32,688 bases of DNA, taken from the NCBI GenBank assembly GCA_903826635.1, contig CAIKFI010000088.1, forward strand, positions 1-32,688, given 5' to 3'. Below the pieces are notes generated by a model. That model was given only the letters and a program-made list of their open reading frames with translations, was not told the origin of the DNA and did not search any database. The stretch's first letter is position 1, and each line of letters begins with the position of its first letter. This DNA comes from an uncultured Spartobacteria bacterium (lineage in GTDB: Bacteria > Verrucomicrobiota > Verrucomicrobiia > Chthoniobacterales > UBA6821). The position numbers and the translations under genes are program-made. Positions 4,641-23,697 of this stretch are shown here, one piece after another.

Positions 4641-10277
<5,637 letters not shown>

Positions 10278-20907: not shown

Positions 20908-20935
20908 AGAGTCAGCTTTCCCTGCTGAAGAAACG

Positions 20936-21008
20936 GGTGGCTGACGGGGCTCGAACCCGCAACAGCCGGTACCACAAACCGGAGCTCTACCATTGAGCTA
21001 CAGCCACC
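20936..21008 (-). tRNA. trnH: tRNA-His (anticodon GUG)
   Basis: Minus strand: an eight-pair acceptor GGTGGCTG/CAGCCACC that includes the extra G(-1):C73 pair diagnostic of histidine tRNA, D-arm with TAGCTCAATGGTAGAGC, anticodon stem CCGGT/ACCGG with loop TTGTGGT (anticodon GTG), and T-arm GCGGGTTCGAGCCCCGT. The 3' CCA is not encoded. Confidence 0.97.
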
Positions 21009-21039: not shown

Positions 21040-21067
21040 ATCATGGTGATGAGGTTTAACTTGTCAA
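21040..21067 (-). promoter_or_regulatory. Candidate tRNA-His promoter
   Basis: Minus strand: a perfect TTGACA (21062-21067), a 16-base spacer, then CATGAT (21040-21045, 4/6). Transcription would begin about 25 bases before the tRNA 5' end. On the plus strand the same place reads TTGTCA and may serve the divergent CYTH-Nudix gene. Confidence 0.45.
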
Positions 21068-21103
21068 TCCCGACATCAGGGTCATCTTTAAAAAAATCTC
21101 AAG

Positions 21104-21970
21104 ATGAGCAAAATCTCCGGCCCAATTCGTCGAAAGTTTCTTCTTGTTTCGGCTCCTTCCCAAATGGCCTTGGCCCGAGGAGTTGAGATAGAGCAGGGTT
21201 ACATCATTCGGGAACGGGGTCAGGAGCTTAGGGTCCGCCGCGAGGGGGGGCGTCATTATCTTTCGGCAAGGGACCGGACGGGAAAGGAGGTGACAGGACA
21301 GGAAATCAAGATCACCAAGGGTCAATTCGAGAAACTCTGGCCCTTCACGCTGGGGCAGCGGATCAAGCGTCTGCGGCATATCATGAAATTGGGGCGGCTC
21401 AAAATGAAGATCGATGAGTTCACTGGTGAGCATGCACCCCTGCGAGTGGCAGAGATCTTTTTTCCCGATGCCGCTGCCTCGAAGGGGTACAAGAAGCCGG
21501 ACTTTCTCGGTGAGGAGATCTCGCGCCGAGAAGAGTATCAGACTGCGGAAATGGCGATTCACGGACCGCCGGAGCCATCCGGAATGTGCCAACTGGGCAT
21601 TCTTCCCTACACGTTTATCGATCGTCGACTGCATCTGCTCCTCATCACGAGTTCCTCGGGAAATCGATGGATTTTCCCCAAAGGTCGCCAGGAACCGGAT
21701 ATGACCCCTCACGAAGTGGCCGTGATGGAAGCCGTTGAGGAGGCCGGGGTGCTGGGAACTCTCCGCCAGGATCTTCGGACCCGCTGCCAGATGGCAGACG
21801 GTCGCCATCTGCAACTTTATGCCATGAAGATTTCAAAATTACTCAAAAGTTGGCCCGAAGCCAATGTCCGCCGCCGCCGGCTTTTCCCACTCAGTGATGC
21901 CTTGGAAATGATCGGTGATCCGGGGCTCGCCAAAGCTGTCAGACGTTTGGCCGTCACGATCAACAAATAA
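21104..21970 (+). CDS. CYTH-Nudix fusion protein with degenerate motifs
   Basis: This 288-residue protein seems to join two phosphate-handling folds. Residues about 5-152 follow the pattern of a CYTH (triphosphate tunnel) domain: a first strand ending KFLLV, EQGYII, LRVRRE, HYLSARD, IKRLRH, KIDEFTG, LRVAEIFF, and the closing PDFLGEEISRREEYQ. The hallmark ExExK is PIRRK (7-11), losing both glutamates, and other tunnel acids are replaced (K102, F119). Residues about 160-285 form a Nudix domain with WIFPKG and a box starting at G194. The catalytic E209, E212 and E213 remain, but the first Glu is M200 and the Arg is M208. Known relatives of each domain act on inorganic polyphosphates, nucleotides or dinucleoside/inositol polyphosphates. 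The substrate is unknown. It stands alone, divergent from tRNA-His. Confidence 0.78.
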   Translation: MSKISGPIRRKFLLVSAPSQMALARGVEIEQGYIIRERGQELRVRREGGRHYLSARDRTGKEVTGQEIKITKGQFEKLWPFTLGQRIKRLRHIMKLGRLKMKIDEFTGEHAPLRVAEIFFPDAAASKGYKKPDFLGEEISRREEYQTAEMAIHGPPEPSGMCQLGILPYTFIDRRLHLLLITSSSGNRWIFPKGRQEPDMTPHEVAVMEAVEEAGVLGTLRQDLRTRCQMADGRHLQLYAMKISKLLKSWPEANVRRRRLFPLSDALEMIGDPGLAKAVRRLAVTINK

Positions 21971-22176: not shown

Positions 22177-23697
22177 ATGCTTACCGTTTTCCGCCGCCAC
22201 CAACAGATTCTCATGCTGGTAATCGCCATCATGACCATTATTGCCTTCATCTGGCTCTATAACCGGACGAACCTCACCCAAGTCGGTAGCAACGATGTGG
22301 CCAGGATTTATGGACAGGTCGTCCAGCGCGCTGAGATCGACCGTCAGGCTCGCGGTTATCAATTGGCGATGGCCCTTGGCCTCACGGATTTTGTTCGGGA
22401 TCTTGGAGGTCTGGGTGAGAATGAGGAGTCTTCCGCAAGCGACTTCATCCTGAATTTGTTGATCATCCAGCATCAGGCTCCGGAACTTGGTATCCGTCCC
22501 TCGGATGAGGCGGTCGCTGAGGTCATCAAGTCCCTCCCCTTACTCCAGACTAACGGAGCCTTTGACCCGGCCAAATACTCCCGCTTCCTTCAGGAACAGC
22601 TGGTTCCCCGTGGATTCACGGAGCGCCAAATGGAGGACACTGTCAGGGATTCCCTGCGCGTGAAAATGATTCGCTCCGTTGTGACGTCTCCCATCGCCGT
22701 CGGGGAAAGTCAGGTTCGTGAGGCGGCAAGAATCTATCAGGCAGTCGACGCGCAAATCCTAAGGTTTGATCGCTCTGCCTTTGAGAAAAGCGCTGCACCC
22801 ACCAAAGAGGAGATCTCGGCCTTTTATGAAAAGAACAAGGCTGGCCTGAGATCCAATGAGTCGAGGTCAATTTCCTACCTTCTCTTCACCCTGCCCGAAA
22901 CCCAGCAAAAACTTGTTGGAAAGGATCATGCAGCCGCCCTGCAGAAACTCGCCGATCAGGCCGTGGAAACCCTCAAGTCGATCCGTCAGAGCCTTGCCAA
23001 GGGCATGGATCTGTCGAAAGCCGCCGAAGCTGTGGCCCTCCATGCTCAAAAAGCCCAGAACCTTCAGAGCGATGGCTCCCAGAATGGAAAACCCTCGGGA
23101 TTGCCAGAGGTCCTTGTCGCTGCCACCTACCGGTTGCAGAAAACCGGGGAACTCTCCGAGATTATACAGGATGGGAATTCCTTTTACGCCCTGATGGTTG
23201 ACGGGGTGGCACCGGCGCGACAACTCGAATTCACCGAGGTGGCGGATAAGATCGGCAGCCTGATTTCTCAGCAAAAAGCTGCTTCAATCGCCTCGGATGC
23301 CGCGACAAAGTCCCTTGATAAGATCCGGGCCGCAATGGTGGCGGGAAAATCATTTTCCGTAGCGGCCAAAGAGGCGGGAGTCAAGACGCAGGTTCTCTCT
23401 GGAGTCGTTCCGGCCGATGAGAAGAACAGCGCAGAGACTCGTGCCCTCGTATCGGCTACCCTTTCACTAAAAGCAGGGGAATTAGGATCCCTCCAGGGAG
23501 CTCCCTGGGGAAACTTTGCGATCTACCTTGAGAAGCGAGCACCGCTGAGCGATGCCCTTTGGAAAGAGCATCAACCCATCATCTCCAAGACCCTTCTCTC
23601 CAACGAGCAGAGCATGCTCTTCTTGGAATGGTTGCGTGCGGCGCGGGTTGGGGCGCAGGTCAAGATGCTTCCCGGAGCGGCAAAGGGAGGGGGCTAA
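22177..23697 (+). CDS. PpiD/SurA-like membrane-anchored foldase
   Basis: This 506-residue protein has one N-terminal membrane anchor (about 10-28, ILMLVIAIMTIIAFIWLY) with a large periplasmic part, the layout of PpiD. A SurA-type N-terminal chaperone region follows (about 85-200), with GIRPSDEAVAEVI and FTERQMEDTVRDSLRVKM. A parvulin-like region (about 230-350) is recognisable from YLLFTLPE, the helix with KGMDLSKAAEAVA, and LQKTGELSEIIQDGNSFYALMV split over about 320-341. It lacks the clear AxHIL signature, so peptidyl-prolyl isomerase activity is doubtful and a holdase role is more likely. No Shine-Dalgarno sequence is visible. It probably begins the TPR-metG-acyltransferase run. Confidence 0.82.
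   Translation: MLTVFRRHQQILMLVIAIMTIIAFIWLYNRTNLTQVGSNDVARIYGQVVQRAEIDRQARGYQLAMALGLTDFVRDLGGLGENEESSASDFILNLLIIQHQAPELGIRPSDEAVAEVIKSLPLLQTNGAFDPAKYSRFLQEQLVPRGFTERQMEDTVRDSLRVKMIRSVVTSPIAVGESQVREAARIYQAVDAQILRFDRSAFEKSAAPTKEEISAFYEKNKAGLRSNESRSISYLLFTLPETQQKLVGKDHAAALQKLADQAVETLKSIRQSLAKGMDLSKAAEAVALHAQKAQNLQSDGSQNGKPSGLPEVLVAATYRLQKTGELSEIIQDGNSFYALMVDGVAPARQLEFTEVADKIGSLISQQKAASIASDAATKSLDKIRAAMVAGKSFSVAAKEAGVKTQVLSGVVPADEKNSAETRALVSATLSLKAGELGSLQGAPWGNFAIYLEKRAPLSDALWKEHQPIISKTLLSNEQSMLFLEWLRAARVGAQVKMLPGAAKGGG

Follow-up and report, generated by a model that had tools for sequence, protein, structure and literature searches.

The CYTH–Nudix fusion gene and its surroundings

The window, by which we mean the whole 32,688-nt stretch of DNA that was analysed, contains a gene with an ATG start whose 288-residue product is a CYTH/TTM barrel joined to a Nudix domain. 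The features of this gene, together with its immediate neighbours, are as follows.

21104..21970, plus strand: CYTH–Nudix fusion gene; ATG start, 288 aa; full-length orthologues exist
21122..21568, plus strand: CYTH/TTM half, residues 7–155, with a remodelled phosphate tunnel (3typ, E = 1.2e-17; TMt 0.84; motif table)
21122..21136, plus strand: ExExK site, here P-I-R-R-K (residues 7–11), with the metal-site-2 glutamates lost (genus alignment)
21590..21949, plus strand: DIPP/DDP1-like Nudix half, residues 163–282 (PF00293; 3mcf, E = 9e-11; Foldseek)
21683..21751, plus strand: Nudix box GRQEPDMTPHEVAVMEAVEEAGV, residues 194–216; metal ligands E209, E212 and E213 kept
20935..21007, minus strand: tRNA-His, upstream neighbour of the fusion gene (context only)
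22177..23697, plus strand: SurA-like peptidyl-prolyl isomerase, downstream neighbour (housekeeping context)

The fusion gene lies among rpsF, ssb, tRNA-His, the SurA-like gene, a TPR gene and metG; these neighbours are housekeeping genes, neither a CHAD nor a ParA gene adjoins it, and the idea of a local operon was rejected, as none could be seen among them. An antisense open reading frame at 21056–21814 is regarded as a mechanical by-product. Elsewhere in the window, a single open reading frame of 1878 residues (4641–10277, minus strand) has the UvrA interaction domain twice, along with several matches to ABC ATPases, and apparently comprises two UvrA units in tandem.

Identity of the two halves

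In phmmer searches against PDB chains, residues 7–153 match the inorganic triphosphatase NE1496 (NeuTTM; 3typ/2fbl, E ~1e-17; about 30% identity), and residues 174–270 match human DIPP3-alpha/DIPP1 (E ~1e-10; 3mcf, E = 9e-11). An AlphaFold2 model, for which 50 fused relatives were aligned, has a pLDDT of 90.4 and a pTM of 0.74, the latter leaving the relative placement of the two halves unsure. Considered separately, the N-terminal half forms the eight-stranded tunnel barrel of the CYTH/TTM fold, with 3typ/2fbl as its top Foldseek matches (TMt 0.82–0.84; 0.84 for 3typ), whilst the top matches for the C-terminal half are 3mcf, 7auq and 2fvv (TMt about 0.75–0.81), such that its nearest relatives by both sequence and structure are DIPP/DDP1. 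The original prediction, made from the DNA letters, had proposed just this pairing of a CYTH N-terminal half with a Nudix C-terminal half, and phmmer, AlphaFold2 and Foldseek all bear it out, also when each half is examined on its own. A viral origin for the fusion was rejected, given that the viral Foldseek matches each cover one half, and never the whole architecture. Pfam recognizes the Nudix half (PF00293, 4.9e-5, with 23.8 bits being above the curated cut-off of 21.1) and gives no match for the CYTH half, even at E ≤ 1; automatic annotation would, therefore, hide the fusion.

The individual domains are known, CYTH and CHAD reportedly having been defined by Iyer and Aravind in 2002. Their combination here, and the gene cluster described below, appear to be undescribed: the literature searched, which mostly excluded subscription papers, yielded neither a description of a CYTH–Nudix fusion, in keeping with what had been supposed at the outset, nor a paper that joins CHAD, ParA, CYTH and Nudix.

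Conservation and selection within the genus

The fusion is present in 15 of the 16 same-genus genomes, window included (one copy is cut by a contig end), and the only genome that lacks it is 84% complete; all six same-family genomes hold the whole or part of it. Full-length proteins are found in 13 other same-genus genomes, at 80–93% identity, and with these orthologues to hand, the motif changes described below can be taken as real and their origin in sequencing or strain-specific error rejected. Among 13 genus members, omega is ~0.07 for the CYTH half and ~0.03 for the Nudix half, compared with ~0.13 for the canonical CYTH that these genomes encode as a stand-alone protein, which lies above the CYTH half of the fusion; the values are rough, as dS is high and near saturation in most pairs, 37 of 78 pairs being usable. 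Neither half is decaying, and purifying selection within the genus is strong.

The CYTH half: a remodelled tunnel

In TTMs, metal site 2 is made up of the ExExK glutamates and the last glutamate of the C-terminal ExE; metal 2, held by these acidic-patch glutamates, activates water, and their mutation cripples activity (PMC4641920). NE1496 shares with the window protein the fold, the basic tunnel and the metal-site-1 glutamate; in contrast, the window protein lacks the ExExK glutamates and the second ExE glutamate, their places being taken by P7, R9 and F119, and has a Nudix domain attached (the correspondence with the residues of PMC4641920 was drawn by motif and is our own inference). The ExExK of catalytic TTMs is likewise absent from the 13 genus members, in which R9 and K11 of the window's PIRRK are invariant and P7 is variable.

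The 14 tunnel positions, aligned to NE1496, read P R K R R R G E R R K D E F in the window protein versus E E K R R K E E K R E D E E. All six of the basic positions are still basic; three acidic residues (E67, D104 and E117) are kept, and two acidic positions have become basic, namely, residue 9 (R9, at the second ExExK glutamate) and residue 102 (K102). Within the genus, 13 of the 14 tunnel positions are invariant, as against 75 of 149 for the whole CYTH half (hypergeometric P = 6e-4). This invariance, taken with the omega values, contradicts decay, which was rejected for the window genus: as read from the alignments, the CYTH half is remodelled, not decayed.

On this basis, with the second, water-activating metal site gone, the CYTH half is predicted to be without triphosphatase activity and to have retained phosphate binding. 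A precedent of sorts is the yeast polyP polymerase Vtc4p, in which basic residues occupy the metal-2 positions and only metal site 1 is kept (PMC4641920). The earlier suggestion that the CYTH half has become a binding module is plausible in the light of the lost glutamates and the kept basic tunnel; retention of the latter, along with the metal-site-1 glutamate E117, suggests that the barrel would act as a tri- or polyphosphate clamp, feeding the Nudix centre. The same anatomy would serve equally well for a sensor, with the activity of the Nudix half turned on or off by a tunnel ligand (PPPi, PPi or a nucleotide), and TTM barrels do open and close upon ligand binding (PMC8233210); nevertheless, such allostery is purely hypothetical and sequence cannot tell a sensor from a clamp, and we give this alternative little credence.

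The changes differ from one lineage to another. Across the Chthoniobacterales, the CYTH losses follow several patterns (P.R.K, K.E.L, A.E.K, E.V.K and G.T.S), and separate residue losses are seen in the L053, L083 and L120 fusions. In a sister Chthoniobacterales lineage (L065 and L070–L072), the basic tunnel residues are lost too, hence the clamp role is not general, and we propose it for the window lineage only. The TTM residues are kept in UBA6056, a bin from the Verrucomicrobiota (save for a single K-to-R substitution), and in three of five spirochaete fusions; moreover, 16 of 17 fusions from Geobacterales have them intact, the other, L057, being short of one Glu. That these Geobacterales cousins keep an intact CYTH site indicates that its loss is lineage-specific.

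The Nudix half: the normal form of a DIPP-like clade

The metal-binding glutamates of the REUXEE motif, E209, E212 and E213, are present in the window protein and invariant across 50 fused proteins from three phyla; the full consensus, GX5EX7REUXEEXGU, is broken by M200 and M208. All of these residues, like PIRRK at positions 7–11, are as first listed, when the changes were read as signs of degenerate active sites in both domains. For the CYTH half, where the catalytic glutamates are lost, that reading stands, but for the Nudix half it does not. The GX5E Glu and the box Arg are missing from most free-standing Nudix relatives in the Alphaproteobacteria, Spirochaetota and Verrucomicrobiota, which makes M200 and M208 a trait of the clade; moreover, the Glu triad is kept in every free-standing relative examined but one (the second Nudix gene of Acidisoma, L096:2647-3018), and a Glu three residues past the glycine (E197) is nearly universal in the clade. 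What had been taken for a modified Nudix centre is, judged by these relatives, the normal form for the DIPP-like clade and should be active, and degeneracy of the Nudix half was rejected. That both halves are dead, leaving a scaffold or pseudoenzyme, might be argued from the loss of the CYTH catalytic residues and the two gaps in the Nudix-box consensus; yet with these two residues missing clade-wide and the triad invariant in the 50 fusions, we consider it highly improbable.

DIPP1-3 and yeast DDP1, the best PDB matches, share with this half the fold, the metal-binding Glu triad and a serine-rich loop ahead of the box (ITSSSGNRW versus VSSSRYPDRW). The window protein is set apart from them by methionines in place of the GX5E Glu and the box Arg, by its membership of a bacterial clade and by the attached CYTH domain.

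Distribution of the fusion and the CHAD–ParA–CYTH–Nudix cluster

A survey of the same fusion, as suggested with the original prediction, found it in nearly all of the genus genomes and, in a scan of a genome collection, in Chthoniobacterales and other Verrucomicrobiota, Geobacterales and Spirochaetota. Two points had been missed: that the Geobacterales fusions mostly have an intact CYTH site, and that in other lineages the gene belongs to a CHAD–ParA–CYTH–Nudix operon. Fifteen of 112 sampled Geobacterales genomes carry the fusion, in one case on a contig whose length is at least 3.8 Mb. In a CYTH tree computed by a quick method, fusions from Verrucomicrobiota and Geobacterales, 47 in all, group together (SH-aLRT 94), which suggests a single fusion event shared by transfer; the placement of the spirochaete fusions is weak. 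Two genomes, labelled Akkermansia muciniphila (L053) and Proteobacteria (L038), bear names that disagree with the position of their fusions in the tree, and are probably mislabelled bins.

The cluster consists of three same-strand genes, encoding a CHAD protein (PF05235), a ParA-type ATPase (KGGVGKT/S motif, AAA_31) and, lastly, the CYTH–Nudix protein. It was seen at all 17 of the Geobacterales loci first found and at 15 from a later search, two sets that may share genomes, and also in UBA6056, at the spirochaete locus L081 and at L085; at L058 and L172, the ParA match is partial only. The 17 Geobacterales proteins (L049–L052, L054–L061, L063, L064, L075, L079 and L080), which are not known from the literature searched, have the same architecture as the window protein, at 37–41% identity, and differ from it in lying inside the CHAD–ParA operon and, for 16 of them, in the intact TTM set.

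An unfused form, with the same order and separate CYTH and Nudix genes, occurs in Verrucomicrobiota, at Pelagicoccus mobilis (L084), L118, L119 and L129, the CYTH gene of the last being broken across two frames, and DG1235 (L087) has CHAD–CYTH–Nudix with no ParA match. Further neighbourhoods are variable in gene order: at L121, L122 and L126, a DIPP-like Nudix gene adjoins CHAD with no CYTH gene; L136 has CHAD–ParA–Nudix, again with no CYTH gene; and L128 and L134 have every cluster member except ParA. Across many lineages, genes of this Nudix clade have CHAD genes as neighbours, whether or not CYTH is also there. CHAD modules bind polyP and occur on polyP granules (PMC6537752), and this repeated pairing of Nudix with CHAD is the best clue to the substrate. 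The operon CHAD proteins (for example, L084:3705-5249) have some 200 N-terminal residues that gave no match in Pfam and PDB sequence searches; our guess is that residues 1–200 are a very diverged CYTH domain.

Amongst known systems, YgiF-type CYTH–CHAD proteins likewise couple CYTH to a second polyphosphate-related domain, and CHAD genes adjoin the cousins of the window gene; here, in contrast, the partner is Nudix, and CHAD, where there is one, has a gene of its own. In Acidithiobacillus, a folD-ppk-parA-CHAD cluster has been reported, wherein ParA adjoins CHAD in a polyP context, as here, although it has ppk and there is no mention of CYTH or Nudix (PMC10892726).

In the window genus itself, no cluster-type CHAD was matched, and the ParA matches are distant relatives with 27–30% identity; the possibility that the CHAD–ParA operon lies elsewhere in the window genome was rejected on these grounds.

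Polyphosphate metabolism and proposed function

All 16 genus genomes, and 24 of 25 relatives of the window genome, possess ppk1. No Ppx/GppA match above the cut-off was obtained in any of the 25 relatives, and none in the 16 genus genomes, whereas most control genomes give one. Members of the order without the fusion are also without Ppx, such that the absence of Ppx is a lead only, of weak support to a role for the fusion.

With moderate confidence, we favour a metal-dependent pyrophosphohydrolase of the DIPP/DDP1 type, acting on a polyP-type substrate delivered by a non-catalytic CYTH clamp. The substrate would most likely be inorganic polyphosphate, or else a different long phosphoanhydride, for instance Ap5A or Ap6A: DDP1 is an endopolyphosphatase, and members of the DIPP family cleave ApnA too (PMC8064635). 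Both halves of the ancestral protein were presumably intact and encoded in a CHAD–ParA–CYTH–Nudix cluster, the gene having later become free-standing in the window genus. That its neighbours there are housekeeping genes, with CHAD and ParA not close by, counts against polyP and a clamp. DIPP-type enzymes are promiscuous, and a dinucleotide polyphosphate could be what this one cleaves; the Nudix half may then act on Ap5A/Ap6A or nucleotides, and the CYTH half be a relic that merely stabilizes the fold or dimer, as the housekeeping context and the extensive tunnel losses in the second lineage would allow. However, a relic would have no need of acidic-to-basic changes in a tunnel that is otherwise invariant across the genus, and the CHAD linkage of the Nudix clade also points elsewhere, so we regard this reading as rather unlikely.

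The preferred reading, a Nudix enzyme fed by a CYTH clamp, can be extended, tentatively and with more doubt than conviction, to the relatives. Their cluster might constitute a polyP-granule system, in which CHAD forms the coat, ParA spaces granules over the nucleoid and CYTH–Nudix trims or mobilizes the polymer; the window-genus enzyme, on its own, might then be the main polyphosphatase, with CYTH as a non-hydrolysing, Vtc4p-like polyP tunnel. The organization of polyP granules in cells has been described as poorly understood (PMC9239181), and the adjoining CHAD–ParA genes link a positioning-type ATPase with polyphosphate-binding proteins in three phyla. The fusion is more interesting in the relatives than in the window protein itself. 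The CHAD-linked, DIPP-like bacterial Nudix proteins would be candidate polyphosphatases where ppk1 is present and Ppx absent. More generally, a triphosphatase barrel has seemingly been rebuilt into a tunnel for binding, within a protein that also carries a second phosphohydrolase, and the putative steps can be read in living relatives, as intact separate genes, an intact fusion and a remodelled fusion.

The window genome also encodes, on the minus strand of L139 (G000:C14), a canonical CYTH protein with an intact ExExK (971–1609), directly followed by a CHAD gene (2–967).
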